This document shows, piece by piece, positions 1 through 14,417 of a stretch of 64,000 nt of DNA (position 1 is the first letter of the stretch; each line of letters begins with the position of its first letter). The translations under genes and the position numbers were made by a program. The notes below the pieces were generated by a model that was given only the letters and a program-made list of their open reading frames with translations, was not told the origin of the DNA and searched no databases. The stretch comes from Methanoregula sp. (lineage in GTDB: Archaea > Halobacteriota > Methanomicrobia > Methanomicrobiales > Methanospirillaceae), in assembly GCA_026625165.1 (NCBI GenBank), contig CP112999.1:496001-560000 (forward strand). The letters are read 5' to 3'.

Positions 1-1208
1 AATTTCTTGTATCCCCACTCGGTCTTCTTCTCGATGGGGAAGAGGTCGTACCCGATAGCAAGGACTGCTGTCCCCACCTTGATCTTGACCAGTTCATCCT
101 TCTGTTCGAGATCGATTGCCTTCTTTTCGCCGCATGCTGTTATACAGAGACCGCACTTGATACAGGAGTCAAAGTCAATGGTGTACAGGAGCGGCACTAC
201 CTGCGGGTGACTGATATAGATCGCTTTGCGGGGCTTCATGCCCATCTCGAAATCGTTGGGCTTGATAACCGGGCACGGCGCTTCACAGTCACCGCAGCCA
301 TTGCAGCCGCCGCCGACAATCCCTCGGGCGTCCGCCTCCGCCATGGTAAGGACACCATGGGCTTTCTTCCGGATGGTCACGTCAAAGTTGCCGATATATC
401 CTTCAACGGCTTCGACCTCGCTGTAGGTCATCAGTTCGATATTGGGGCTTCTCCCGACATCCACCATCTTTGGTGTTAAAATACACTGTGAACAGTCCAG
501 CGTCGGGAAGGTCTTGTCCAGCTGGGACATCTTTCCGCCGATGGTCGGTTTCGATTCAACGAGGTATGTCTTGATCCCTGCTGCGGATAGATCGAGTGCT
601 GCCTGCATACCGGCAACTCCAGCACCGACGACCAATGCCGCGTGTTCAACAGGAACCGTCTTCGGGAACAGGTCCTGCAGGAGCGATGCCTTGGCAACGG
701 CAATCCGCACGGCATCCTTTGCCTTTGCGGTCGCACCTTCGCGGTCGTGCATGTGCACCCACGAGTTCTGTTCGCGAATGTTTGCCATCTCGAACCGGAA
801 CGGGTTGAGGCCGCCTTCCTTTGTGGCAGTCCTGAATGTCGGTTCATGGAGACGCGGGGAACATGCAGCAACAACGGTGCCGGTCAGCTTCTGCTCCCTG
901 ATTGCCTTCATTATCACTTCCTGCCCGGGCATCGAGCACACGTACTTGTAGTTGTCAACATAGGCGACATTCGGGAGGGTTTTTGCATAGTCCTGCACGG
1001 CAGTGATATCCAATGAACCGGCGATGTTGGTACCGCAGTGGCAGATAAATACGCCGATGCGGGGCTGTTCCTTGCTGCCGGTGGTCGGTGCTGCCTTTGC
1101 GGGAGCCTGCTTGGGTGCTGGTGCTGCCTGCTTCTTTGCCTCCTGTTTTACCGGGGCTTCCTTCTTTACTTCCATCTTCTTGGACCCTGCTTTCTTCTTT
1201 TCAGCCAT
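1..1208 (-). CDS. hdrA: CoB-CoM heterodisulfide reductase subunit A (5' part, runs off the left edge)
   Basis: HdrA is the FAD-containing electron-bifurcating subunit of cytoplasmic heterodisulfide reductase, which couples CoM-S-S-CoB reduction to ferredoxin reduction. The first 402 codons are present; the C-terminus lies outside the window. Seen: the N-terminal CHCGTN motif near residue 57, an FAD GAGVAG motif near residue 195, the CSQC motif, and ferredoxin-type clusters GGCNGCGDCEAPCP and CIKCGLCITACG. All cluster positions carry ordinary cysteine. Residues 2-48 are a Lys/Ala/Pro-rich tail ahead of the usual start of the fold (RIGVF). The ATG at 1208 follows GAGGTGAG, ten bases after the hdrB stop, so this is the last visible gene of the fwdGF-hdrCBA operon. 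Confidence 0.96.
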   Translation of the reverse strand, partial: MAEKKKAGSKKMEVKKEAPVKQEAKKQAAPAPKQAPAKAAPTTGSKEQPRIGVFICHCGTNIAGSLDITAVQDYAKTLPNVAYVDNYKYVCSMPGQEVIMKAIREQKLTGTVVAACSPRLHEPTFRTATKEGGLNPFRFEMANIREQNSWVHMHDREGATAKAKDAVRIAVAKASLLQDLFPKTVPVEHAALVVGAGVAGMQAALDLSAAGIKTYLVESKPTIGGKMSQLDKTFPTLDCSQCILTPKMVDVGRSPNIELMTYSEVEAVEGYIGNFDVTIRKKAHGVLTMAEADARGIVGGGCNGCGDCEAPCPVIKPNDFEMGMKPRKAIYISHPQVVPLLYTIDFDSCIKCGLCITACGEKKAIDLEQKDELVKIKVGTAVLAIGYDLFPIEKKTEWGYKK

Positions 1209-1218
1209 CTTTCTCACC

Positions 1219-2136
1219 TCACAGGACCTTCTGCAGGAATGGTTCGCAGCTGATACCATGGAGGTCCAGCCCGAGATCCTGCGGGCTCATTCCCTGTGCC
1301 AGTCCCAGAAGCTCTGCATAGTGCAGTACGGGGAGACCATACTTGACACCGAATTTCTCCTCGATCTCGATCTGGCCGCGGTCGAATTGCAGCTGACAGA
1401 ACGGGCAGATATCGGTAAGGGCGTCCACTTTTACCTCTTTGAGGTTGATCAGCTTCTCATTTGTGATATCCAGCGAGTGCACGATATCGTACCCGCGGAC
1501 ACCGCCACCGGCCCCGCAGCACTGCATCTTGTTCCGGTACTCAACCGGGGTTGCTCCCAGTGCGGCAACCAGTTCTTCCATCCATGTCGGGCGTTCGGTG
1601 TTCAGCATGTCCTCTTTTTCAAACTCACGGTCCTTGTGGGGCTTGACAAGGTGGCAGCCGTAATGGACAGCGATACGTGCTCCCTTCAGGGGATTTGTCA
1701 CGCTGTCGCGTACCTTCTGGACACCGATGAACTTGTCATTATAGAGCAGTTCGGCAGTGTGGTACACATTGATGGTGCCCTTGTATTCCATGTCGATTTC
1801 TTTTAAGACCTCATTCACGCCATCCTTCAGGTCCGGGTTGTGCTTGAGCTTGTGGTTGACTTCCCAGATGGACTTGTAGCACCCGTTGCAGAGCAGGGCG
1901 ATATCAGTCTTCATCTGCTCGGCAAGCACGAGGTTGCGGGCAGCCATGGCATAGAATACATTGAGGTCAATCGAACCGAATGCACCTGGTGCCGGGCAGC
2001 AGCTTGCACCCTTGAGAGGTACCAGCTCAACGCCGAGTTTTTTCATAGCTTTGATGGATGCGGATTCGCAGCCGGGGTACCGGTTCGGGGCAATGCAGCC
2101 GAGGTAGAATGCGAACTTGTGTTTTGCTTCTGACAT
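1219..2136 (-). CDS. hdrB: CoB-CoM heterodisulfide reductase subunit B
   Basis: HdrB is the catalytic subunit of soluble heterodisulfide reductase and holds two non-cubane [4Fe-4S] clusters that cleave the CoM-S-S-CoB disulfide. The 305-residue protein has the two expected CCG-type cysteine domains: an N-terminal set (Cys near 14, SCCPAPG near 45-50, CNGC) and a C-terminal set (HYGCH, CCGAGGG, CPFC). Length fits the family. A strong GGGAGGGG ribosome site precedes the ATG. It lies between hdrC (6 bases upstream) and hdrA (10 bases downstream). Confidence 0.97.
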   Translation of the reverse strand: MSEAKHKFAFYLGCIAPNRYPGCESASIKAMKKLGVELVPLKGASCCPAPGAFGSIDLNVFYAMAARNLVLAEQMKTDIALLCNGCYKSIWEVNHKLKHNPDLKDGVNEVLKEIDMEYKGTINVYHTAELLYNDKFIGVQKVRDSVTNPLKGARIAVHYGCHLVKPHKDREFEKEDMLNTERPTWMEELVAALGATPVEYRNKMQCCGAGGGVRGYDIVHSLDITNEKLINLKEVKVDALTDICPFCQLQFDRGQIEIEEKFGVKYGLPVLHYAELLGLAQGMSPQDLGLDLHGISCEPFLQKVL

Positions 2137-2142
2137 GGTATC

Positions 2143-2733
2143 TTACCCCTCCCGTTCTTTGACGATCCGGTCGGCATTTGCCTTGAGCTTGTAATGGTCA
2201 AGGATCTTCTGGATGCCTTTGACATATTCCGGATACATGTGGGTGGTCGGCGGATCACGGGTAAGCCCGAGCCGCTCGCGGGCTGCACGGTTCACATCAT
2301 TATTAGGCACACCGTGCCCGGATGAATAAATCGCCTGCACGGTCTTGAGGAAGTTTACCGGCACAATGTCTCTCTTGAATGCGAGGTTCCTCATTGCCAT
2401 TATTACATCTGTGGGTGCGATATCCCGCGGGCAACGGTCTGTACAGCTGTAACAGGTGGTACATAACCAGAGGTCGGGGTCAGTCAGTGCCTCGTTCTCG
2501 AGCCCCAGCACTGCCCGCCTCATGAAATGGCGGATCCGGTAAGTGCTGCGGGGAGCGGACGGGCATGAGCCGGTACAGGTGCCACACTGGTAACACATGT
2601 GTGCAATGGTGCGTGAGATTCCTTTCACTTTCGGGAGAAATTCAGGATTTGAATCCTCACGATAGTACCGCTGATCACGGAGTTTCTTCTCCAGAGCTTC
2701 CGGGTAACCTTTTACTCGTGCCATACTCATCAC
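2143..2733 (-). CDS. hdrC: CoB-CoM heterodisulfide reductase subunit C
   Basis: HdrC passes electrons from the HdrA flavin to the HdrB active site through two [4Fe-4S] clusters. The 196-residue protein shows the two motifs CYQCGTCTGSCP and CTTCYSCTDRCP. Its start overlaps the stop of the upstream polyferredoxin gene by four bases, which implies translational coupling. Confidence 0.96.
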   Translation of the reverse strand: MMSMARVKGYPEALEKKLRDQRYYREDSNPEFLPKVKGISRTIAHMCYQCGTCTGSCPSAPRSTYRIRHFMRRAVLGLENEALTDPDLWLCTTCYSCTDRCPRDIAPTDVIMAMRNLAFKRDIVPVNFLKTVQAIYSSGHGVPNNDVNRAARERLGLTRDPPTTHMYPEYVKGIQKILDHYKLKANADRIVKEREG

Positions 2734-3905
2734 GCCTTCTCCATTATTTTAATTGAAACCTGTCCGGTCACGTCTTCCTTCACCTTCGATGTCCTCTTGG
2801 TGAAGAGCTTCTCCTTAATCTTCTTGAACAGGTCGGTCTCTGTGCCCTTGATGCGAACTCCGGTCCTCTGCATGATAATAATATCCTCGCCCGGGCATGC
2901 ATTGACGCAGGCGCCGCACAGGATGCAGAAGTCCTTGTTGACCGCGATCGTGGGCTCGATCTTACCCTTCATGTCCGCTGCGGGGACTGTTGACGGGAGG
3001 TATATCGCGTTTGCCGGGCAGATCTCGGCACATGTCGAGCAGCCGCCGGGGCATTTTTCTGCATGGAACTCGATGTCGCCCTCGAAGATCTTCTCGACAG
3101 TAATGGCCTCAGGCGGGCAGTTCCGCGAGCACCACTGGCAGGTGCAGCAGTTGTCCTGTATGATCTCAACCTTGCCATCCACCTTGTCGGAAATGACCTC
3201 GCGCTCGACCGTCATGCATTCCTCGGGGCAGGCCTCGACACAGACCTTGCATGCGTCGCATTTGGTCTCGTCCCAGATAACCTCGCCCTCGATTTTGCCG
3301 GTCTCAGCGGTAAATTCCTTGTGCTTCACCACGATTGCAGGACAGAGTGCACCGCACAGGCCGCAGTATGTGCATTTCTCTTTATCGACGGTAAAAGTTG
3401 TCTTTGTCTTGATTGCAGTCTGACGGTCCTTTGCCCCTGCAACCGGTTCCTTGTACGTCCCTTCGTAAGCGGGGACTTCCCGGCTGATCGCGTCACGGGG
3501 GCAGACCTCTTCGCAGATCGTGCACTTGACACACTTTTCGTTGTCGATCTCTGCTTTCATGTCGTACTGGGGGAAGCCTTCCTTTTCAAGAATCGGGAGC
3601 TTCTCCTGTCCGTCAACCTTCAGAGTCAGTGCATTGAACGGGCACATGACTACGCAGACGCCGCAGTACGAGCACTTGACCTCGTCGACATCCACCGGCG
3701 CAGCGTAATCAATAGCACCACGCTTTGAAGCACCGACGAGACCGAGCACAATCGCCTCTTCCGGGCATGCATCAACGCAGATGCCACATCCTGTGCACGT
3801 CTCTGAATTGAGAATCAGGTTGTTAACGCTCTGCAGGAGGCGCTGCTCCATCACAACGTTGACACCGTCTCGCTTTTTTGAAAACTTTGGAAACAATGTG
3901 TTCAT
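2730..3905 (-). CDS. fwdF: Polyferredoxin with eight [4Fe-4S] motifs, FwdF/FmdF-like
   Basis: The 391-residue protein has eight CxxCxxCxxxCP-type motifs, beginning CTGCGICVDACP and ending CILCGACVNACP; the seventh is the variant CPGGCSTC. Eight clusters match FwdF, the electron-wiring polyferredoxin of tungsten or molybdenum formylmethanofuran dehydrogenase, and the neighbouring two-cluster protein matches FwdG. MvhB-type polyferredoxins are longer with about twelve clusters, so FwdF fits better, but family assignment is by cluster count and context only. It overlaps hdrC by four bases, so it is made together with heterodisulfide reductase. It likely carries low-potential electrons from Hdr to the CO2-reducing active site in the cytoplasm. 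Confidence 0.82.
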   Translation of the reverse strand: MNTLFPKFSKKRDGVNVVMEQRLLQSVNNLILNSETCTGCGICVDACPEEAIVLGLVGASKRGAIDYAAPVDVDEVKCSYCGVCVVMCPFNALTLKVDGQEKLPILEKEGFPQYDMKAEIDNEKCVKCTICEEVCPRDAISREVPAYEGTYKEPVAGAKDRQTAIKTKTTFTVDKEKCTYCGLCGALCPAIVVKHKEFTAETGKIEGEVIWDETKCDACKVCVEACPEECMTVEREVISDKVDGKVEIIQDNCCTCQWCSRNCPPEAITVEKIFEGDIEFHAEKCPGGCSTCAEICPANAIYLPSTVPAADMKGKIEPTIAVNKDFCILCGACVNACPGEDIIIMQRTGVRIKGTETDLFKKIKEKLFTKRTSKVKEDVTGQVSIKIMEKA

Positions 3906-3928
3906 GAACTAACCCTCACACTACTCCT

Positions 3929-4195
3929 CTATTGTACCTTTGCCGGAATCCTGGATTCCCAGGGTCCTGTCAGCCTGATAACATCGTGCGGACAAGCCTG
4001 GACGCAGACGCCGCAACCGGCGCAGAGCTCACCTTTGAAATCAAGGACCACAGATTTTCCGTCCTTGACCTTGTAGATCTTCTCCTTCGAAGAAGGTTCC
4101 ACCGTGTGAAGCTCCAATGCGTCAACAGGGCATGCGACTACACAATTGTTACAGCCAGTACAATTTTCCATGTTGATATGTACTGCAAATGTCAT
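3929..4195 (-). CDS. fwdG: Two-cluster ferredoxin, FwdG/FmdG-like
   Basis: This 88-residue protein has two [4Fe-4S] motifs, CTGCNNCVVACP and CAGCGVCVQACP, as in bacterial-type 2[4Fe-4S] ferredoxins and the FwdG subunit. It heads the operon, 23 bases before the polyferredoxin gene. The ATG at 4195 is preferred; an in-frame GTG at 4210 would add five residues (VREKR). Pairing of a two-cluster and an eight-cluster protein is the FwdG/FwdF combination, which is the reason for the call. A free ferredoxin serving Hdr is the alternative. Confidence 0.72.
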   Translation of the reverse strand: MTFAVHINMENCTGCNNCVVACPVDALELHTVEPSSKEKIYKVKDGKSVVLDFKGELCAGCGVCVQACPHDVIRLTGPWESRIPAKVQ

Positions 4196-4219
4196 TCTTT
4201 TTTCACGCACCAGCTATGA

Positions 4220-4238
4220 TCGATTTTTTAAAAATCGA
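4220..4238. promoter_or_regulatory. Palindrome upstream of the fwdGF-hdrCBA operon
   Basis: Nine-base perfect arms (TCGATTTTT / AAAAATCGA) surround one central base, 25-43 bases upstream of the fwdG-like ATG. That is where an archaeal core promoter would lie. The flanking 4211-4434 stretch is very AT-rich and separates this operon from ftr on the other strand, so it must hold both promoters. An operator role is inference. Confidence 0.45.
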
Positions 4239-4464
4239 CTATCTGAAGAGTGGTTAAGATTTACAGATAAATGTTCTGAAATTAAGTCAGGAAAATTGGT
4301 AAAACCACGATGTTTTTTTAATTTTTAAATTTTAATTTTTTATTCAAGTTAACCCCTTGTTGTGTACTTTTAAACCATTTTTTTGTGCGCTCTTGATCCT
4401 GAAATTAATTTAGAAAATTTATTGAATAGTAAGTATGCAACTGTTGTGGTACCGGAGGTTATGT

Positions 4465-5349
4465 ATGGAAATCAACGGCGTTACAATTGACAACACGTAT
4501 GCAGAAGCGTTCCCAACCTGGATCTGCCGGATCATCATCACGGCAGTCACAACGGAATGGGCACGGAAGGCAGCAACTGAAGCGACAGGCTTTGCGACAT
4601 CAGCGATCGGCTGTCCGTGCGAGGCAGGCATCGAACAGGAACTTGACGGTGCACAGACCCCGGACGGGCGCCCCGGCGTCTCAATCCTGATCTGTGCCAG
4701 CAAGAAAAAACTCAAAGAGCAGGTCGTCGAGAGGCTTGCAGAATGCGTCCTCACTGCACCAACAACTGCAGTTTTCAACGGCATCACAAATTCAGAGGAA
4801 AAGATCGCGGTAAAGCTCCATTTCTTTGGCGACGGGTATGAATACCAGAAGGAAGTCGGCGGCAGGAAATGCTGGGTCATCCCGATCATGAACGGCGAAT
4901 ATGTCGGTGAAGAGGAGTTTGGCATCGTCAAGGGGGTTGCGGGAGGCAATTTCTTTGTCATGGGCGAGAACCAGATGGCAGCACTCGTTGCGGCTGATGC
5001 AGCAAGCAGTGCGATTGCAAAAGTCCCCGGCACCATCACCAGTTTCCCCGGAGGCATCGTGGCAAGCGGTTCCAAGGTCGGCAGCATAAAATACAAGTTC
5101 ATGCCTGCATCCACCAACGAGAAGTACTGCCCGACGCTCCGGGAGAAAGTTCCGGACAGCAAGATTCCTGCAGGGGTCAAGGCAGTCTATGAGATCGTCA
5201 TCGACGGGCTTGACGAGAAGAGTGTTGCCGCGGCAATGGCAGCCGGGATCAGGGCTGCAGTGCATGTCCCGGGCGTGAAGTTCATCTCTGCAGGGAATTT
5301 CGGCGGGACTCTCGGGCCGTACAAGATTGAGCTCTACAAGGTGCTCTAA
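4465..5349 (+). CDS. ftr: Formylmethanofuran:tetrahydromethanopterin formyltransferase
   Basis: Ftr moves the formyl group from formylmethanofuran to tetrahydromethanopterin, the second step of CO2 reduction in methanogens. The 294-residue product, beginning MEINGVTIDNTYAEAFPTW and carrying the ATSAIGCPCEAG segment, matches the length and sequence character of the family. The ATG at 4465 is chosen because GGAGG (4454-4458) sits six bases before it; an in-frame ATG at 4435 lacks such a site. It is monocistronic, divergent from the Fwd/Hdr operon, and followed at once by a T-tract. Confidence 0.97.
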   Translation: MEINGVTIDNTYAEAFPTWICRIIITAVTTEWARKAATEATGFATSAIGCPCEAGIEQELDGAQTPDGRPGVSILICASKKKLKEQVVERLAECVLTAPTTAVFNGITNSEEKIAVKLHFFGDGYEYQKEVGGRKCWVIPIMNGEYVGEEEFGIVKGVAGGNFFVMGENQMAALVAADAASSAIAKVPGTITSFPGGIVASGSKVGSIKYKFMPASTNEKYCPTLREKVPDSKIPAGVKAVYEIVIDGLDEKSVAAAMAAGIRAAVHVPGVKFISAGNFGGTLGPYKIELYKVL

Positions 5350-5356
5350 TTTTTTT
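5350..5356 (+). terminator. T-tract terminator after ftr
   Basis: Seven consecutive T directly follow the ftr stop, then an A-rich run. Oligo-T tracts are the usual intrinsic terminator of archaeal RNA polymerase. Confidence 0.5.
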
Positions 5357-5530
5357 ATAAAAAAAGCATAAAAAGCAGCATTTCAGAAAGCATTTAAAAT
5401 CCATTGCCATCATTATCCTTTCACGTTATCATAACGGGATCAGGTATCAGGCACCATTTGTTGCTGGTTTAATGTTTACACTTCTTAACCTGCTTCCATG
5501 GGTTTACTGTTTTCCGGGCAGGGAAGAATA

Positions 5531-5573
5531 AAACGATCTGAAAAAAACGATCTGAAAAAACGATCTGAAAAAA
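5531..5573. repeat. Short tandem repeat, three copies
   Basis: CGATCTG occurs three times, at 5534, 5548 and 5561, each followed by a run of A, giving a 13-14 base unit. It lies in the 469-base gap between ftr and mmp11. No gene covers it. It may be slippage-prone sequence with no function. Confidence 0.6.
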
Positions 5574-5630
5574 TGAGGAAATTAAAAATCAATTCCCGGT
5601 CTTCTTCCACCAATCGATCAGAATAAATAC

Positions 5631-5674
5631 TGTTATTACCGATTATCCTGTTAACGAAACAATCGGTAATAACA
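5631..5674. promoter_or_regulatory. 14-base inverted repeat upstream of the mmp11-aks operon
   Basis: TGTTATTACCGATT (5631-5644) and its exact reverse complement AATCGGTAATAACA (5661-5674) flank a 16-base spacer containing GTTAAC. The element ends 145 bases before the mmp11 start. It could be an operator or an RNA hairpin; it is too far from a T-run to be a simple terminator. Confidence 0.5.
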
Positions 5675-5818
5675 TGATCACCCTGATACAGGAGGAAGCG
5701 GATCGGGAAGCAGCTGCTCTCGATACCGGATCTCCGGACAGGGATGCACGAACGGGTAGGACCGGTACATCTGGTCCGGACCTGTGGGGCAACGAGGGGA
5801 TCGGGGCGGAGGGGATGC

Positions 5819-6715
5819 ATGGGGGACCTATCTGAACCCTACGTGATCCATTACCCGCAGATCGTAGCTGTGGCGGACACGACCGGTACGCGTGTGGAAC
5901 TGATCGAGTTCTTTGACTGTGTAGGGGGGGCGAAGTGGTCAGCACACCATTATGCCCAAAGCCCGCTTGTCGGGTCCGTACGGTGTGTCGGCGGGACAAT
6001 GAGGTACCTGCTCCGGCAGGGCACCGCCGACCTTGCACTGGAAGGGTCGAAGTTCCCGGCAGGGATCTCCTCTGTTGTTGTTGACGACCGGGAGATTGCC
6101 GTCACGTATATCGGTATGGGTGGCGGGGGTGTGGGGGCGGCAGCATGCCGTTCCGATGCTAAAGGGGTAATCCGGAACCGGACGGACCCGTCAGGTGGAG
6201 GTAAAGTTGCCGGTTCTACGGTCTGGCTCCCCCGGAGGCAACGGCTCCTGATCGGTGTTGACGATACCGATACACCAGAGGCAGGGGCCACATGGACACT
6301 TGTCCACAACATTGCAAAAGCGGTTGAGGATGAGCACTCCGTCTACCTCTCGCACACGATCGTCCAGCTCTTTCCCGTACCGTACAGGACAAAGAACTGT
6401 GTCAGTCTCGTCGCCGAGTTTGCGACAACAAAACCCGACCGTCTCATCCGGAAATTCCACCAGCTGCTGGAACGGTACACGCTCTCGGATAAGACCGGCA
6501 TGGCAACTTATTCCGGATTCACCCCGTCAGCGCAACTCCTCGATTTCGGCAGGAAAGTGAAACGGGGCGAAGTACAGCCCGGGCTTTTGGGAAGCATCAG
6601 GGATGACCAGCTGAAAGTCATTATTGACGGGAGGGGGATTATCGGTGCGGTTGCTGCCCTGCCGTTCTTTACAAAGTATGAGGAGGCGCTGTTGTTATGC
6701 GATGGAAGGAACTGA
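5819..6715 (+). CDS. mmp11: Methanogenesis marker protein 11
   Basis: The 298-residue protein has the family's opening (PYVIHYPQI..VAD..ELIEFFDC) and an IGVDDTDTPEAGATW segment that resembles the GxDDTD nucleotide-binding motif of TiaS-like proteins. Marker protein 11 is conserved in methanogens; its function is not established. The ATG at 5819 is preceded by GGAGG at 5808-5812, while an in-frame ATG at 5744 would add 25 Arg/Gly-rich residues unlike the family. It overlaps the next gene by 19 bases and leads the operon that carries the aks genes. Confidence 0.85.
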   Translation: MGDLSEPYVIHYPQIVAVADTTGTRVELIEFFDCVGGAKWSAHHYAQSPLVGSVRCVGGTMRYLLRQGTADLALEGSKFPAGISSVVVDDREIAVTYIGMGGGGVGAAACRSDAKGVIRNRTDPSGGGKVAGSTVWLPRRQRLLIGVDDTDTPEAGATWTLVHNIAKAVEDEHSVYLSHTIVQLFPVPYRTKNCVSLVAEFATTKPDRLIRKFHQLLERYTLSDKTGMATYSGFTPSAQLLDFGRKVKRGEVQPGLLGSIRDDQLKVIIDGRGIIGAVAALPFFTKYEEALLLCDGRN

Positions 6716-7665
6716 AAGCACAGGCGCTTGCAACCGGCTCAGCCCGGCTGTCCGGCGAACCCGCAGACCGGTTCATCACCCGGTCGGCAGCGGGACCAGG
6801 AGCCGGCGGGGAAGGTTCGGTCTTCTTTTCGATGGGTGGACACCGGGTCCGTCTTTCACTCGACCCGATGAGCGATGTGGAGGTAGTGCACCGCGGCGGG
6901 GGTGTCGCCGACCTCTTTATCGGCACGACACAGGTGAGCGGGAGGCTGGAGGAGCCCGGGCTCCATTGCCCGAACCAGGCGTATATCACTGTCACGGGGT
7001 CGTGCATCTTCCATTGCAGGTACTGCCCGGTCCCGGACTTACATGGACAGCGCAAGAGCATCGGCGAGATCGTGGCAATGGTGGAGGCGGTGCGTGACCG
7101 GGTCAGCGCGATCTCGCTGACAAGCGGTGTCCTGTCCAGCATCGGGGATGAGGAGGAGTACGTGCTCAAAGTAATCCGCCAGCTCCTGCCGTTTGGCCTA
7201 CCCATCGGCGTATCCATATACCCCACCGATCAGACGCCCGCCCGGCTCCATGAACTTGGTGTCGTTGAGGTGAAATTCAATATCGAGGCTGCGACCGCCC
7301 CGCTCTTTGCAAGGATGTGCCCGGACCTTGAATACGACATGATATATGGCGTGCTTGAGGATTCGGTGCAGCTCTTCGGGAAAGGGAAGGTCTTTTCCAA
7401 CGTGATCATCGGGCTCGGCGAGACCGATGATGAGATGGAACAGTGCATACGGCGGCTCACCGTGCGTGGCATCATCCCCGTACTGCGCCCCTTAAACCCG
7501 GTCGCCGGGGTTTCCGCAATGCCCCGCCCGTCCCCGGAACGGCTGAACGCGGTCTTTGCGATGCACGAGCGGGCGCTGGATGCAGCAGAACTTGACACCC
7601 GGCAGGTACAGACAATGTGCACCTGCTGCACGGGCTGCGACCTTGTGCCCGGGAGGGATGCATGA
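6697..7665 (+). CDS. Radical SAM protein in the coenzyme B operon
   Basis: The 322-residue protein carries the radical SAM cluster motif CIFHCRYC (Cys 103, 107, 110), followed by a typical TIM-barrel-like sequence with a conserved GLGETDDE segment. The C-terminus has an extra Cys cluster, CTCCTGCDLVPG, which could bind an auxiliary cluster. It overlaps mmp11 and, by an ATGA, the TPP-binding gene. Substrate is unknown. Location between mmp11 and aks genes suggests a methanogen cofactor or thiol-forming reaction; that is inference. Confidence 0.82.
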   Translation: MRWKELKAQALATGSARLSGEPADRFITRSAAGPGAGGEGSVFFSMGGHRVRLSLDPMSDVEVVHRGGGVADLFIGTTQVSGRLEEPGLHCPNQAYITVTGSCIFHCRYCPVPDLHGQRKSIGEIVAMVEAVRDRVSAISLTSGVLSSIGDEEEYVLKVIRQLLPFGLPIGVSIYPTDQTPARLHELGVVEVKFNIEAATAPLFARMCPDLEYDMIYGVLEDSVQLFGKGKVFSNVIIGLGETDDEMEQCIRRLTVRGIIPVLRPLNPVAGVSAMPRPSPERLNAVFAMHERALDAAELDTRQVQTMCTCCTGCDLVPGRDA

Positions 7666-8936
7666 AAGGCGCCGAAGCAATCGCGGCAGCTCTCAAAAGC
7701 TTTGGGGACCGGTTTTACGCGGTCCCGGGATATCCGGTGACCGGGATCTCGACCGGCGCCGGTGCAGAAATTGTGATCAATGAAAAGGTAGCGCTTGAGT
7801 ATGCACTGGGCGACTCCCTTGATGGCCGTCGCGCCGCGGTCATCATCAAGAATGTGGGCCTGAATGTCTGCGCCGATCCGCTTATCAACGCGACCACGCA
7901 GGGTTTGCTGGCGGGAGTAGTGATCATAGCCGGGGACGACGTGCTCGCCAGAGGATCGCAGAACACCGAGGACTCCCGGTACTTTGGCGAGCTCGCGCAG
8001 GTCCCGGTGATCGAACCGGATGCCCGGACCTGCAGTCCTGCAATCGGTGCCGCGTTTGAGGCCTCGGAACGGTTCTCGCGGGTCGCCATCGTCCGGGTCA
8101 CCTCTCCCCTTATCGAGGGTGAGGTGACTGAAACACACGCAGCACCCCACCAGAGACGGAGCGGGGCCCTTGCTTCACCTGACCTGACAATGCGGGGCAG
8201 GGCACAGGCAGCAGACCGTGCTGCTGCGGGGATGTGGCCTTGGTCCCGGCAATCCACCCTTAACCTATGGGGCGGGGGAATTGTGGGTGTGGGGGCAGCT
8301 GACGGGGACTCCCACGCAGTGACCGTATACCCCCCCTCAAACGATGCACAGGCCCTTGCACAGACCCGGGAACTCGGCAGACCGTTTGTCAGGGAGCACC
8401 GATGGGTGAACCCGCCGGAGGCACCTGAAACTCCTGAGACATTTTCCCGGCGCGGTTTCTGCCGCACGTTCTGCAGGGACTGCCCCTTTAAATCCGTCCC
8501 GGGGATCCTGAAGGAACGGAGGATGCCGGTCATCTGCGACATGGGTTGTGCGGTCCTTGCCGGCAACCCCCCTTACAGGATTGGGAAGGCCTGCTATGCG
8601 CTGGGTTCATCGGTGGCCGTTGCTGCGAAGAGCACAAAGGTGGCGCTCTTGGGTGATTACGCGCTCCTTCACTCCGGCATCAACGCGCTCATCGATGTGT
8701 ACGAGAAGGGCCTCCCCCTCCTCTGTATCGTGCTGAAGAATGACCGGATGGGAATGACTGGCGGGCAGCCTGTCTATGACCTTAACCGCTACCTTGCGTG
8801 GGCAGACCCGGTCATCTGCCGGGCTGACGAGATCATCCGGTTACGGGAGCATATCGTGCCCCCAAAAAAGCCGGGGGTCCTGATCGTTTCAGGGCAGTGC
8901 CCTGAGGGATGCCATCATGAAACCGTGGAATGTTGA
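7662..8936 (+). CDS. TPP-binding IorA-like protein lacking the ferredoxin domain
   Basis: This 424-residue protein resembles the alpha subunit of indolepyruvate:ferredoxin oxidoreductase. It has an N-terminal pyrimidine-type domain and a C-terminal TPP domain with GDYALLHSGINALID followed by an Asn in VLKND, and the MTGGQP segment. It lacks the C-terminal 2[4Fe-4S] ferredoxin domain of IorA, which is about 600 residues, but has a CxxxCxxC motif (CRTFCRDC) between the domains. The start at 7662 overlaps the radical SAM stop, and the 3' end overlaps aksA by 20 bases. Coenzyme B synthesis needs decarboxylation of 2-oxosuberate, a reaction suited to TPP chemistry, so this is a candidate for that step. 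Confidence 0.75.
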   Translation: MKGAEAIAAALKSFGDRFYAVPGYPVTGISTGAGAEIVINEKVALEYALGDSLDGRRAAVIIKNVGLNVCADPLINATTQGLLAGVVIIAGDDVLARGSQNTEDSRYFGELAQVPVIEPDARTCSPAIGAAFEASERFSRVAIVRVTSPLIEGEVTETHAAPHQRRSGALASPDLTMRGRAQAADRAAAGMWPWSRQSTLNLWGGGIVGVGAADGDSHAVTVYPPSNDAQALAQTRELGRPFVREHRWVNPPEAPETPETFSRRGFCRTFCRDCPFKSVPGILKERRMPVICDMGCAVLAGNPPYRIGKACYALGSSVAVAAKSTKVALLGDYALLHSGINALIDVYEKGLPLLCIVLKNDRMGMTGGQPVYDLNRYLAWADPVICRADEIIRLREHIVPPKKPGVLIVSGQCPEGCHHETVEC

Positions 8937-10047
8937 GATCTGTGACGTAACCCTGCGGGACGGCGAGCAGACGCCCGGCGTCTCGTTCTCCTGTGAAGAG
9001 AAAACTGAGATTGCCCGTATGTTGGACGAGGTCGGGGTCGAGGTGATCGAAGCGGGGTTCCCGTCGGTATCCGAGAATGAGAAGCACTGCGTTAAGACAA
9101 TTGCCGGCCTCGGTCTTGATTCGCGCATATGCTGCCTTGCCAGGGCGAAACAGTCTGATGTGGACGCGGCGATTGACTGCGGTGTTGCGATGGTCAGCAT
9201 CTTCATCGCAACCTCCGACCTCCACATGCGGATCAAGTTCAAGGACAAGCCAAAGGAGCAGGTCCTTGCCGACACCCTTCCTCTTATCGATTACGCCCAT
9301 GATCACGGGCTGGCGGTCCGGTTTGCCGCGGAAGACGCGTCACGGACGGAGCTTGCATTCTTAAAAGAGGTCTACCACCGGGCATCGGAGCACGGCGCGG
9401 ACCTCCTCTCATTTGCAGACACAGTGGGTTGCTTAACCCCGCTTGAAATGTACCGGGTCATGTCAGACCTTGTTGAAACGGTCAACCGGCCGCTCTGCGC
9501 ACACTGCCACAATGACATGGGCTGCGCAGTTGCCAATACGATCACTGCGGCAGAGGCCGGCGCTTTCCAGCTGCACACCACAGTCAACGGCATCGGGGAA
9601 CGGGCCGGTAACGCGGCGCTTGAGGAAGTGCTCATCGCGCTGCGGATGAGCGGCGGCGTGGACCGGTATGACCTTTCACACCTGGTTGCGCTCTCGAAAA
9701 AAGTCGAACAGTACTCGGGGATCCGTCTGCCCCGCAACAAGCCGGTAGTCGGCGAACTGGCGTTCTCACACGAGAGCGGGATCCATATCGCGGCGATACT
9801 CGATGACCCCCACTCGTACGAGCATTTCTCCCCGGAGCTTATCGGGGGCGAACGACGGTTCATCCTCGGCAAGCATACGGGGAAGAAGGCGCTCGAGCAC
9901 GTTGTTTCCTCAATGGGGTGCGAACTGACCGAGCCCCAGATCTGCCGGGTGCTGGAGAAGGTCAAAAAGCACTCTGAGGAGAAGTGCATTGTAACCCCTG
10001 ACGTTCTGAAGAAACTGATCAGGAATGCAAAGGAGGAGAAGGTATAG
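8917..10047 (+). CDS. aksA: Homocitrate synthase family protein AksA
   Basis: AksA condenses 2-oxoglutarate and its longer homologues with acetyl-CoA to start each round of 2-oxoacid elongation toward 2-oxosuberate, the coenzyme B precursor. The 376-residue protein has the alpha-isopropylmalate/homocitrate synthase signatures CDVTLRDGEQTPGV near the N-terminus and the HCHNDMG metal-site motif. It is shorter than LeuA and lacks a full regulatory domain, as expected for AksA. The neighbours aksD, aksE and aksF favour AksA over LeuA or citramalate synthase. Confidence 0.88.
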   Translation: MKPWNVEICDVTLRDGEQTPGVSFSCEEKTEIARMLDEVGVEVIEAGFPSVSENEKHCVKTIAGLGLDSRICCLARAKQSDVDAAIDCGVAMVSIFIATSDLHMRIKFKDKPKEQVLADTLPLIDYAHDHGLAVRFAAEDASRTELAFLKEVYHRASEHGADLLSFADTVGCLTPLEMYRVMSDLVETVNRPLCAHCHNDMGCAVANTITAAEAGAFQLHTTVNGIGERAGNAALEEVLIALRMSGGVDRYDLSHLVALSKKVEQYSGIRLPRNKPVVGELAFSHESGIHIAAILDDPHSYEHFSPELIGGERRFILGKHTGKKALEHVVSSMGCELTEPQICRVLEKVKKHSEEKCIVTPDVLKKLIRNAKEEKV

Positions 10048-11259
10048 ATGGGTACCCTCTCGGAACGGATCCTTGGTGCACCGGCAGGAGCGTACGTTGA
10101 CAGGAAGGTTGACCGTGCCTATGTCCACGACGGCACGGGCGTGCTCACGTTTGAAGCCTGGAAGAACATGGGTTCCAAAGGGCTCTCTGATCCCTCGCGC
10201 CTTTCGGTGATATTCGACCACATTGTCCCTGCAAACAATTCGATGACAGCAACGCTCCAGCGCGAGCTGCGTGAGTTTGCAAAGGGCTCGTTTCTGCATT
10301 TTTCCGATATCGGTGAGGGCATATGTCACCAATGCATGAGCGAGGGTGTCGTCCTGCCCGGCGAAGTGGTAGTCGGAGCCGATTCGCACAGCTGCACTAC
10401 GGGAGCGTTTGGTGCGTTTGCGACCGGTGTCGGCGCAACAGATATGGCTGCGATCTGGCTGACCGGGGAGACCTGGTTCCGGGTGCCCGAATCGATCGCG
10501 GTCCGGCTTGAAGGGGAATTTTTGGGTGCGGCAGAAGCAAAGGACATTGCACTGAAGTACGTGAACCGGCTCGGAATGGACGGGGGCTCGTATAAGGCTC
10601 TGGAATTCGTCGGGGATGGTACCGGCGGGCTTTCCATGGACGACCGGCTCGTGCTCTGCAACCTTGCAGTAGAGACAGGGGCAAAAACAGGGATGTTCTA
10701 TGCCGACAGGATAACCATGGATTACCTTGAACGGTATGGCCTGTCAGCAGCACCACAGGTTCAGGAGACCTGCACATACGTGCAGGAACTGGAAATCGAC
10801 CTTGCGGATGTTGTCCCCCTTATTGCCCTCCCGCCACGGGTGGATACCGTCCGGCCGGTGCACGACCTTGCCGGCCTCCCTGTAGACCAGGTGTTTGTCG
10901 GCACCTGCACCAACGGCAGGTACTCAGACCTTGCACGGTTCGCCCGGGTTGTGAAAGGGAACCGGGTCGCTGTCCGCACCATTGTCGTCCCTGCGTCGCG
11001 ACAGGTACTCAGCGAAGCAGTGAGGACCGGGGTGCTGACCGATATCATCGATGCAGGATGCACGATCGGGACCCCCGGCTGCGGCCCCTGCCTTGGTGCC
11101 CACATGGGCGTTTTGGGCGAAGGAGAGGTCTGTCTCTCAACTGCGAACCGGAACTTTAAAAACCGGATGGGGGTCGGCGGGGAGATCTATCTCGCATCCG
11201 TGGCAACTGCAGCGGCAACTGCGCTTGAGGGCGAGATCACCGAACCGGGGGTGCCCTGA
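10048..11259 (+). CDS. aksD: Homoaconitase large subunit AksD
   Basis: This is the large subunit of the LeuC/aconitase-like isomerase that dehydrates and rehydrates homocitrate analogues. The 403-residue protein shows GADSHSCTTGAFGAFATGVG and the [4Fe-4S] cysteines in VGTCTNGR and TPGCGPCLGAH. It directly abuts aksA and overlaps aksE by one base. LeuC is the alternative; the YLRT loop of the partner small subunit and the operon favour homoaconitase. Confidence 0.88.
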   Translation: MGTLSERILGAPAGAYVDRKVDRAYVHDGTGVLTFEAWKNMGSKGLSDPSRLSVIFDHIVPANNSMTATLQRELREFAKGSFLHFSDIGEGICHQCMSEGVVLPGEVVVGADSHSCTTGAFGAFATGVGATDMAAIWLTGETWFRVPESIAVRLEGEFLGAAEAKDIALKYVNRLGMDGGSYKALEFVGDGTGGLSMDDRLVLCNLAVETGAKTGMFYADRITMDYLERYGLSAAPQVQETCTYVQELEIDLADVVPLIALPPRVDTVRPVHDLAGLPVDQVFVGTCTNGRYSDLARFARVVKGNRVAVRTIVVPASRQVLSEAVRTGVLTDIIDAGCTIGTPGCGPCLGAHMGVLGEGEVCLSTANRNFKNRMGVGGEIYLASVATAAATALEGEITEPGVP

Positions 11260-11729
11260 TGCGGGGTGCCGGGCATGCAGTCCGTCTCGGGGCTGACATT
11301 GATACCGATGTTGTCATCGCAGGGCGCTACCTGCGCACAAAGGACCGGAGCATCTGGGCAGCCCATGTCTTCGAGGATCTTGATCCATCCATTGCCCCGA
11401 GACTTTCAGGAGCTGTCATAGTTGCCGGCCGGAACTTCGGCTGCGGGTCGTCGCGCGAACAGGCTGCAATTGCACTGAAAGAGGCTGGAGTTGTTGCGGT
11501 AGTTGCACCAAGTTTTGCCCGTATTTTTTTCCGCAACGCAATCAATATCGGTCTCCCCCTGATTGAATCTGACCTTTCGTGTCCTGATGGAACCATGGTG
11601 CGCTTCGACCTCAATTCGGGTTGGGTGGAATCCGGCGGGAATCGCAGGCCGGTCCCCTTGCTCTCGCCCCGGATGCTTGATATCCTGCATGCCGGGGGTC
11701 TTGTGGAGTACTGGAAGGTGAAGCGGTGA
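11259..11729 (+). CDS. aksE: Homoaconitase small subunit AksE
   Basis: The 156-residue swivel-domain subunit has NFGCGSSREQA, the family signature. The substrate-recognition loop reads YLRT (near residue 24-27). In the characterised methanogen homoaconitase this loop is YLRT, whereas isopropylmalate isomerases have a different hydrophobic loop, so this residue pattern directly supports the homoaconitase call. The TGA stop overlaps the GTG start of the following gene. Confidence 0.88.
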   Translation: MRGAGHAVRLGADIDTDVVIAGRYLRTKDRSIWAAHVFEDLDPSIAPRLSGAVIVAGRNFGCGSSREQAAIALKEAGVVAVVAPSFARIFFRNAINIGLPLIESDLSCPDGTMVRFDLNSGWVESGGNRRPVPLLSPRMLDILHAGGLVEYWKVKR

Positions 11730-12544
11730 TCTTTCCAAAGCAGTGCAGGCAGGTCGGCTTTGCATCGACAAAACCCTGCGGCGACAAGGTCTATTTCCTG
11801 AGCCAATATCTCGTCCGCCCGGTGGGCGATAGCCACGAGATCCTCGAAGTTGCCCTTGAAACCGGTACAAAAGGCATTATGCGCCGCATTCTCTCCTCAA
11901 AGGTCATCGCACATACCCGCGAAGTGTACCGGTATCCCGGGAAGGTGCAGCTCCATGACCGGGCGCGGCTTATCCAGCTCGCGCTTGATTCCGGTCACCG
12001 GTGCACGCTCTTTTTTGGGCTTGATGAGCATATGATATTCGTGCTCGACCCGGACCTGTCCGGCCTGTTGCGTGTTCATGTGTATGATGCAGGTCCGCCC
12101 CGGCCGTCCCTTTCTTCCTGTGTCCGCGAGCTTGAAGCATGCGGGCTGTTTGGTGAACTGCAGGTTGCCTTCTGCCACCATATCCTCGACCTTGCGCAGG
12201 TGAAGGCGGACGTGTATCCCTGCCGTGCAGCAGGATTTACAAAAACCCTTGATGCGGATGCGGTTAAAGGAGGCGAGCGGGTTGCCGGGTGCCTGACCGG
12301 TTCGCAGCTGGTAAGCGAGTGTTACGGCACAGATGTTGAACTGCTCAATATCTGCCCGCTTGCAGAGGCAAAAGAGGAGCCGTTCATCGCCCGCTGCTGC
12401 CGGTCTGAACGGGAAGGTGTTGGCAGGTACAACGGGAAATACGGTGCGGTCGTGCACTGGGGGGCGTCACCCCGGCAGATCGCAGATTCGGTCAGCGCGC
12501 TCGTAAATGGATGGAAGGAGCATGAAAAAAATCGCAGTCGCTGA
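11726..12544 (+). CDS. Unrecognised conserved-looking protein between aksE and aksF
   Basis: I do not recognise this 272-residue protein. It is soluble, with no signal or membrane segment, and is Cys/His-rich: CHHILDL near residue 150, then single cysteines in VYPCRA, GCLTG, SECYG, NICPL, and a CC pair (ARCCR). It starts with GTG, overlapping the aksE stop by four bases, and its 3' end overlaps aksF by 23 bases. It is therefore embedded in the coenzyme B operon. A metal- or sulfur-handling role is possible but not shown. Confidence 0.8.
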   Translation: MIFPKQCRQVGFASTKPCGDKVYFLSQYLVRPVGDSHEILEVALETGTKGIMRRILSSKVIAHTREVYRYPGKVQLHDRARLIQLALDSGHRCTLFFGLDEHMIFVLDPDLSGLLRVHVYDAGPPRPSLSSCVRELEACGLFGELQVAFCHHILDLAQVKADVYPCRAAGFTKTLDADAVKGGERVAGCLTGSQLVSECYGTDVELLNICPLAEAKEEPFIARCCRSEREGVGRYNGKYGAVVHWGASPRQIADSVSALVNGWKEHEKNRSR

Positions 12545-13493
12545 AGGTGACGGTATCGGGCACGAAGTGATCCCGGTAGCCCGGCAGGTGCTGGAACTGC
12601 TCCATCCGGAATATGAGTATTTCAGCGTGGAGATGGGGTACGGCAGGTGGGAGAAGACCGGCTGCCCATGCAATGACCATGAGATCGCGGCGTTAAAAAG
12701 TACGGATGCGGTACTGTTCGGGGCAGTGACCACCCCCCCGATGAAGGACTACCAGAGCGTGGTTCTGCGCATCAGGAAAGCTCTCGACCTGTATGCAAAC
12801 CTCCGCCCGGTGAAGGGCGAGGGTTTTGACATCATGATCGTGCGGGAGAACACGGAGGGGCTCTATTCCGGGATCGAGGAGGCTGACACTGACCGTGCAA
12901 CAACGCTGCGGGTGGTAACCCGGAAGGGAACGGAACGGATAGCGCGGACAGCGATCCGGCTCACAAAGACCCGGCGGCTCCTGACGATCGGGCACAAGGC
13001 GAACGTGATCAAGTCGGACGTCTTTTTCCGCGATATCTGCATCGCAGAAACAATATCCGCAGGTGTCCCTTACAATGAGAAATACATCGACGCCCTCGCG
13101 CTGGACATCCTCCAGCACCCTGCTGCATACGATGTCGTCGTGACCACCAACATCTTCGGCGACATCCTTTCTGATGTTGCCTCTTACCTCGTTGGCGGCT
13201 TGGGGCTTGTGCCCAGCGCGAATATCGGCGACCGGTATGCCCTTTTCGAGCCTGTGCATGGCAGCGCCCCGGACATTGCAGGGAAAAATATTGCCAACCC
13301 CGTTGCGGCGATCCGGAGCGCTGCGATGCTGCTGGACTACTGCGGGGATCATAAGGGCTCAGCGATGATCGAGACAGCAGTACTTCAGACCATTCTTGGC
13401 GGCACCAGGACCGCCGATCTCGGGGGTACTGCCGGAACCCGTGAGTTCGGGGATGCTGTCGCAGAGAAAATCAAGGGCCTTACAAAAAAATGA
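12522..13493 (+). CDS. aksF: Homoisocitrate dehydrogenase AksF
   Basis: AksF oxidatively decarboxylates homoisocitrate and longer homologues, completing each elongation round. The 323-residue product has the beta-decarboxylating dehydrogenase features: GDGIGHEV at the N-terminus, RENTEGLYSG, a catalytic Lys/Tyr region, and EPVHGSAPDIAGKNIANP. The ATG at 12522 is chosen since GGAAGGAG precedes it; an earlier in-frame ATG at 12507 lacks this. It is the last gene of the operon and converges on ubiA. Confidence 0.9.
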   Translation: MKKIAVAEGDGIGHEVIPVARQVLELLHPEYEYFSVEMGYGRWEKTGCPCNDHEIAALKSTDAVLFGAVTTPPMKDYQSVVLRIRKALDLYANLRPVKGEGFDIMIVRENTEGLYSGIEEADTDRATTLRVVTRKGTERIARTAIRLTKTRRLLTIGHKANVIKSDVFFRDICIAETISAGVPYNEKYIDALALDILQHPAAYDVVVTTNIFGDILSDVASYLVGGLGLVPSANIGDRYALFEPVHGSAPDIAGKNIANPVAAIRSAAMLLDYCGDHKGSAMIETAVLQTILGGTRTADLGGTAGTREFGDAVAEKIKGLTKK

Positions 13494-13541
13494 CTCTGCT
13501 CTTGCTGATGCAGGAGTTTCCTGCAATGCCAAGACACGGGG

Positions 13542-14417
13542 TTACAGCCGTAGAACCGCAAACACTGCGACCATGGCAAGAGTGATGGCGATGGCGCGAC
13601 AGTTGATGGCGGGCACAAACATGGGTTCATACCGGGGATCATGCATCGCCCGCCAGACCGGGTGCATGAGCAGCAGCCCGGACGGGATGAACACAAGGAG
13701 CCAGTAAAACGGGGGGTGGAAGAGGGCAAACAGTGCCGTGGTGCACAGTGCCGCTGCGAGAAGTACCAGCGTGAGCATAAATGCACGCTTCTTCCCTGCA
13801 ACAATCACGAAGTTTTTTCGTACAAGCCGGTCCTTTTCAAGGTCCCGGATCTCGTTGAAAATCTCTGCGACTGCACCAAAAATAACCACAAGCACAAAAA
13901 AGAGGGCGCCGGTCCAGTCAGGCGACCCGTAGAGCATGTATCCCATTACGGCGTACAGGCCGGGAAACAGCCCGTGATAGGCCAGGTCGGGTCCTGCAAT
14001 GTTTTTTACCTCGATCCCGACAGAATAGGTGGCAAAGATGAACAGTTCAAGTCCACCAAGAATGATAAGGGGAAGGGGAAGTAGTAACAGACAAATCAGG
14101 GATACGACAAGGAGCAGGCCGCAGACCACGTAAGCTGACGTAAGCGGGCAGGTACCGTCCGCCAGCGGGTTGCGGGGGTTGGGTTCATTTGCATCAAGGG
14201 TTCTGTCGGAGATGTCATTGAGGACAAAACCGAACGAAGCGGACGTGGCAATAAAAAGCTCAAGCACGATAATTTTCCCGTCAATGGGGGCAAGCGTGAG
14301 CAGGGCGCCAAAGAGGCCGGTGAGCAGAAAGAGCGGCCCGTATGCCGTAAACCGGATCAACCGCAGGACAGGGTGGGCGCGGGTGCCTCCCGCACGGGAA
14401 AGACTGGTACAGTGCAT
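13542..14417 (-). CDS. UbiA-family prenyltransferase
   Basis: The 291-residue integral membrane protein has the two Asp-rich motifs of the UbiA superfamily: NDISDRTLDANEPN (first) and NEIRDLEKD (second), with seven to nine hydrophobic segments. In archaea such enzymes include digeranylgeranylglyceryl phosphate synthase and quinone or haem prenyltransferases; the substrate here cannot be told from sequence alone. It converges on aksF and diverges from the glycosyltransferase gene. Confidence 0.88.
   Translation of the reverse strand: MHCTSLSRAGGTRAHPVLRLIRFTAYGPLFLLTGLFGALLTLAPIDGKIIVLELFIATSASFGFVLNDISDRTLDANEPNPRNPLADGTCPLTSAYVVCGLLLVVSLICLLLLPLPLIILGGLELFIFATYSVGIEVKNIAGPDLAYHGLFPGLYAVMGYMLYGSPDWTGALFFVLVVIFGAVAEIFNEIRDLEKDRLVRKNFVIVAGKKRAFMLTLVLLAAALCTTALFALFHPPFYWLLVFIPSGLLLMHPVWRAMHDPRYEPMFVPAINCRAIAITLAMVAVFAVLRL

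Follow-up and report, generated by a model that had tools for sequence, protein, structure and literature searches.

The source genome is a single 2.17-Mb contig, and the stretch analyzed here (the window, 64,000 nucleotides) begins at its base 496001. Five genes on the minus strand were found at the left end of the window, at the places where the original prediction had put them: fwdG (3929-4210 with a GTG start, 93 aa, or 3929-4195 with an ATG start at 4195, 88 aa), fwdF (2730-3905, 391 aa), hdrC (2143-2733), hdrB (1219-2136), and the 5' part of hdrA (1-1208), which runs on to genome position 495070. The hdrC and hdrB products scored above the cut-offs of their equivalog models (219.5 vs 160 bits for TIGR03290 and 460 vs 345 bits for TIGR03288, respectively), HdrC matched chain C of structure 7bkb (E 3.6e-104), and HdrA aligned with 7bkb_A (E=0) from query residue 47. 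With the CCG domains of HdrB and a full-length HdrA, the set corresponds to a soluble HdrABC. The predicted cluster numbers also held, with eight motifs in FwdF, recognized as a polyferredoxin by sequence, motif count, and fold, and eight cysteines, equivalent to two clusters, in the 88-93-residue FwdG.

The divergent neighbor of fwdG is ftr (4435-5349, plus strand), encoding formylmethanofuran:H4MPT formyltransferase (NF002554, 444.7 bits; TIGR03119, 408.3 bits; both above cut-off). The region between them (4211-4434), AT-rich on reading of the sequence, presumably contains the promoters of both the fwdG operon and ftr, and locus comparison revealed that this divergent arrangement is kept in relatives.

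The genes fwdF and hdrC share four bases (GTGA) provided that hdrC starts at GTG; the next codon is an ATG that has a good ribosome-binding site (GGAG) some 8 bases before it, and a start there would reduce the overlap to one base (TGATG). It had been proposed that the four-base overlap serves specifically as a device for setting the FwdF:HdrC stoichiometry through coupled translation. With the GTG start the overlap does exist in the window, but most of 57 homologous loci have a positive spacing between fwdF and hdrC (median +9; zero or negative in 12), whereas hdrA and mvhD lie at or below zero spacing in 52 of 55. Since the overlap is not conserved, the stoichiometry claim is left unsupported, and we regard such a device as very improbable.

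Gene content beyond the window

Analysis of the sequence to the left of the window edge revealed mvhD and all of fwdABCD, which had been suggested as the genes to look for there, contiguous with hdrA. The whole run comprises ten genes (fwdG-fwdF-hdrC-hdrB-hdrA-mvhD-fwdD-fwdB-fwdA-fwdC) with junctions ranging from a small overlap to 23 bases, and is probably read as a single transcript in the source organism. The mcrBDCGA genes follow 3' of fwdC on the same strand, separated from it by about 450 bases in which a scan for bacterial promoters and terminators, a promoter type that is wrong for archaea, gave signal at chance level. HdrABC, MvhD, and FwdABCDFG are thus all present and homologous to chains of the Hdr-Fwd/Fmd supercomplex structure, and the operon covers all parts of that supercomplex except the electron-donor module. 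We conclude, with a probability of about 90%, that the window contains the 5' half of an operon of ten genes for nearly the whole bifurcating, CO2-reducing Hdr-Fwd supercomplex of a Methanoregulaceae-type methanogen. As the genes for Hdr, the wire, and Fwd share one operon, a known megacomplex that joins the last and first steps of methanogenesis is encoded here almost as one unit.

In the rest of the genome, a CCG domain scan detected a single HdrB-type gene; the one further gene with this domain is a 491-aa frame. The fwdF/fwdG pair is likewise present in a single copy, and a genome-wide search for a second FwdF/FwdG pair found none. A second fwd set, the only other one in the genome and linked to an Eha-like hydrogenase, is located at about 928-933 kb. 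The FwdB of this set shares 47% identity with that of the operon, and in place of the complete pair whose presence would argue against the wire the set has a ferredoxin of about four clusters. It encodes FwdD, B, A, and C together with this ferredoxin (L081:9401-15261) and lies directly behind the large subunit of an energy-converting hydrogenase. Given this second, energy-converting-hydrogenase-linked set, part of the CO2 reduction may proceed without the Hdr wire.

Identity of FwdF and FwdG

The original prediction held that the two ferredoxins form the Hdr-to-Fwd junction, and family comparison of the 391- and 88-residue proteins gave FwdF and FmdG, not a non-Fwd ferredoxin, as best matches. 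FwdF matched 7bkb_K best among PDB entries (E 6.5e-173, 578.7 bits, 65% identity). It contains eight motifs of the CxxCxxCxxxC type, one of them in the form CxxxCxxCxxxC, and its AlphaFold2 model (pLDDT 79) had 7bkb_K as top Foldseek match (TM 0.77), so that both [4Fe-4S] motif number and fold are those of the FwdF/FmdF family. The best family model, NF042909, gave 230.8 bits, yet this is below its cut-off of 375; NF042909 is an 'exception' model whose cut-off was passed in one control genome out of 14, and the shortfall means only that the protein does not belong to the narrow NF042909 subtype, its name resting on the match to 7bkb_K. FwdG corresponded to 7bkb_L, the FmdG chain (E 1.8e-37), and FwdB to 7bkb_H (E 2.4e-176).

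An identity as MvhB was rejected, with eight clusters vs about 12, and 95.7 bits for 9sw6_G vs 578.7 for 7bkb_K; any other polyferredoxin identity for the 391-aa protein was rejected on sequence, profile, and fold. A protein of the MvhB type, or a ferredoxin linked to hdrA as in Methanosarcina, would serve Hdr alone and not be a Fwd subunit, a view for which FwdF-like polyferredoxins (about 33-40% identical) encoded after hdrA-mvhD with no adjacent fwd genes offer some precedent (L189, L190; other Halobacteriota). Against it, the match to 7bkb_K in sequence and fold lies far above that to the MvhB chain, and fwdF adjoins fwdG, the product of which is most similar to FmdG. This alternative is already refuted by the comparison of sequence and fold, and we assign it practically no probability.

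The closest experimental counterpart is the Fdh-Hdr-Fmd supercomplex of Methanospirillum hungatei (7bkb/7bkc, Watanabe et al. 2021), with orthologous FwdF, FwdG, HdrA, and HdrC. We compared the printed portions of chains K, L, C, and A (for K, almost the entire chain) with the M. hungatei genome, and they proved to be encoded exactly by one locus, L057, with the order fwdG-fwdF-hdrC-hdrB-hdrA-mvhD. The hdr operon thus includes fwdF and fwdG in M. hungatei as in the source genome, in identical order and followed by mvhD. In M. hungatei, on the contrary, the fmd/fwd DBAC genes lie elsewhere: the printed start of its FmdB is encoded about 170 kb from L057, at L192, whereas fwdDBAC directly follow mvhD in the source genome. 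The structure contains an FmdB paralogue with 58% identity to the source FwdB, whose closest M. hungatei homologue is 73% identical. In the account given by PMC12350162, citing Watanabe 2021, the M. hungatei FmdF binds HdrA directly. Since the hdr operon of M. hungatei that corresponds to the present one encodes the FmdF and FmdG of the structure, the reading of FwdF and FwdG as the wire from Hdr to Fwd is well supported.

Distribution of the gene order

Among 20 fetched loci with this order, 15 had the fwd catalytic genes behind mvhD (one of the 15 being cut by the locus edge), and five had fwdF-hdrCBA-mvhD without them. In the sample of 110 loci from genomes with a listed FwdB, FwdF was within 8 kb of FwdB in 79 among the matches listed. 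The unlinked cases among these matches came mostly from genus g3, which we take to include Methanoregula, and from Methanospirillum, plus part of the genus of the window. Named loci with hdr-linked fwdF belong to Methanoregula, Methanolinea, Methanoculleus, Methanofollis, Methanogenium, and Methanomicrobium. The full ten-gene order was also present in the complete genomes of Methanoculleus marisnigri and Methanocorpusculum labreanum and in one genome of the G199 lineage, and it occurred twice per genome in Methanocella paludicola and in a further genome from that family. Judged by these sequences, this arrangement is ancient and broadly distributed, occurring in Methanomicrobiales, Methanocellales, and a third lineage. 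One locus (L063, genome G043, 1-14400) was observed to carry two adjacent tandem fwdF-hdrCBA-mvhD units ahead of one fwdDBA.

The same ten-gene order is found in Methanocella conradii (Mtc_2468-2477, the Fwd-Mvh-Hdr unit), where it is transcribed as one unit (PMC6046458). That paper restricts the unit to Methanocella, which is incorrect, since the order is found in Methanomicrobiales and G199 genomes; PMC12054007 lists FwdB genes of Methanomicrobiales and Bog-38 as clustered with hdrA. The Methanocella cassettes differ from that of the source genome in protein identity (about 50-65% for most subunits), in number (two per genome in the two Methanocellales genomes examined), and in the presence of Mvh hydrogenase genes (PMC3146512, PMC6046458).

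The fwdGF genes remain with hdr when fwdDBAC relocate, as seen by locus comparison. In several genomes (L193-L196) the relocated fwdDBAC carries its own fwdG, 70-75% identical; the fwdG left at the hdr locus of Methanoregula genomes was observed to be often diverged (45-62%). Across the subunits, distance correlations were high (0.5-0.9 in most pairs), a measure distinct from a formal co-inheritance test.

It could be argued that fwd, hdr, mcr, and ftr are merely co-regulated metabolic neighbors, and that a soluble ferredoxin links Hdr to Fwd in place of a wire. Many relatives do have mcrBDCGA after fwdC and a divergent ftr, and the fwd set tied to an energy-converting hydrogenase leaves room for free ferredoxin. 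However, hdrCBA-mvhD separates fwdG/fwdF from fwdDBAC in identical order in distant groups, fwdF stays with hdr at the loci that fwdDBAC have left, and the M. hungatei orthologues from the matching operon physically constitute the wire in 7bkb (PMC12350162). We therefore consider simple clustering improbable, and retain the supercomplex operon as the explanation of the locus.

Terminal tails of FwdF, HdrA, and FrhG

FwdF proteins of the cassette type end in a conserved tail, encoded in the window at 2730-2850 (minus strand; residues ~352-378, ...ETDLFKKIKEKLFTKRTSKVKE). It is common to Methanomicrobiales, Methanocellales, and the G199 lineage (RTSKVKE, KTPKIKE, KTPTIEK); the tails of the Methanosarcina-like proteins are longer and unrelated to it. 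The tail is ordered in 7bkb_K, as the model contains 386 of 388 chain residues. In Methanothermobacter, on the other hand, FwdF has 349 aa and does not carry such a tail. Its Mvh/Elp-Hdr-MvhB-Fwd complexes likewise join bifurcation and CO2 reduction in one assembly, and differ in the predicted role of MvhB as a bridge between HdrA and FmdF (PMC12350162).

Because fwdGF keep with hdr when fwdDBAC leave, FwdF and FwdG can be seen on genetic grounds as the adapter of Hdr. Tentatively, FwdFG might be a portable adapter belonging genetically to Hdr and not to the CO2-reducing core, and the conserved FwdF tail might serve for docking. In that case its presence would mark direct HdrA-FwdF wiring (Methanomicrobiales, Methanocellales, and the G199 lineage), and its absence a wiring in which MvhB forms the bridge (Methanothermobacter). 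The idea is tempered by 9sfi_T, the FwdF of another solved complex, which has part of the tail region despite the presence of an MvhB-like chain, and we hold it to be possible but rather doubtful.

The N-terminus of HdrA (1070-1208, minus strand) bears a tail of about 45 aa rich in Lys, Ala, Pro, and Glu (MAEKKKAGSKKMEVKKEAPVKQEAKKQAAPAPKQAPAKAAPTTGSK). Tails of 30-60 residues were found in HdrA of Methanoregula/Methanolinea-type genomes and were absent in Methanospirillum, Methanoculleus, and Methanocella. FrhG (L079:2300-3181, minus strand) was also observed to start with MGLLSxIFxKK and to have a low-complexity tail between this start and the conserved domain; this tail occurs in nearly all sampled Methanomicrobiales, with a related one in Methanocella. 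A co-occurrence of both tails through replacement of MvhAG by FrhAG was considered and rejected: there is no clean correlation, the FrhG tail being broad and the HdrA tail limited to the Methanoregula/Methanolinea part.

Proposed electron route

The MvhA-MvhG pair of an Mvh-dependent Hdr was not found. MvhA is absent from the genome. The NiFe large subunits found belong to FrhA and two energy-converting types, which excludes Mvh as the donor. The genome contains two FdhA genes, and by homology to M. hungatei the most likely donor would be FdhAB docked through MvhD; F420H2 through FdhB, or possibly FrhAG, a published alternative (PMC5563889), could also serve. Electron pairs from the donor would pass through MvhD to the HdrA flavin, where HdrA would bifurcate them. 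One electron would go to HdrB/HdrC for CoM-S-S-CoB reduction, and the low-potential electron would travel from the inserted ferredoxin domain of HdrA through the eight clusters of FwdF and through FwdG to the W/Mo site of FwdB/FwdD. There, CO2 would be reduced to formate, from which FwdA would make formylmethanofuran. By analogy with the solved complex, we infer that the subunits assemble and conduct by this route in the source organism.

A Fwd-HdrABC-MvhD cluster in Methanomicrobiales without MvhAG, together with a second, Eha-linked Fwd, has been described in Methanocorpusculum parvum (PMC5563889), where, unlike the direct wire proposed here, the cluster was read as serving a dedicated ferredoxin pool.

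Discussion

The original prediction saw in the operon a genetic marker for lineages that channel bifurcated electrons directly to CO2 reduction without free ferredoxin. The cassette does recur across three lineages, Methanomicrobiales, Methanocellales, and a further one, but Methanothermobacter also forms supercomplexes (PMC12350162), as does, according to Costa 2010 as cited in PMC6046458, Methanococcus maripaludis. The operon looks like a sufficient, not a necessary, marker of a supercomplex, and its absence is uninformative because other lineages do not require it.

Altogether, the operon is real, well explained, and of a kind already known from relatives, and the present genome is a new example with comparative detail. 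Modest new points are the retention of fwdGF with hdr, the FwdF C-terminal tail, and the Lys/Ala-rich N-terminal tail of HdrA. If the docking idea were true, the FwdF tail would predict the type of wiring from sequence. For the biology of this abundant methanogen group, the locus means that a nearly complete bifurcating CO2-reduction machine is encoded in one operon.
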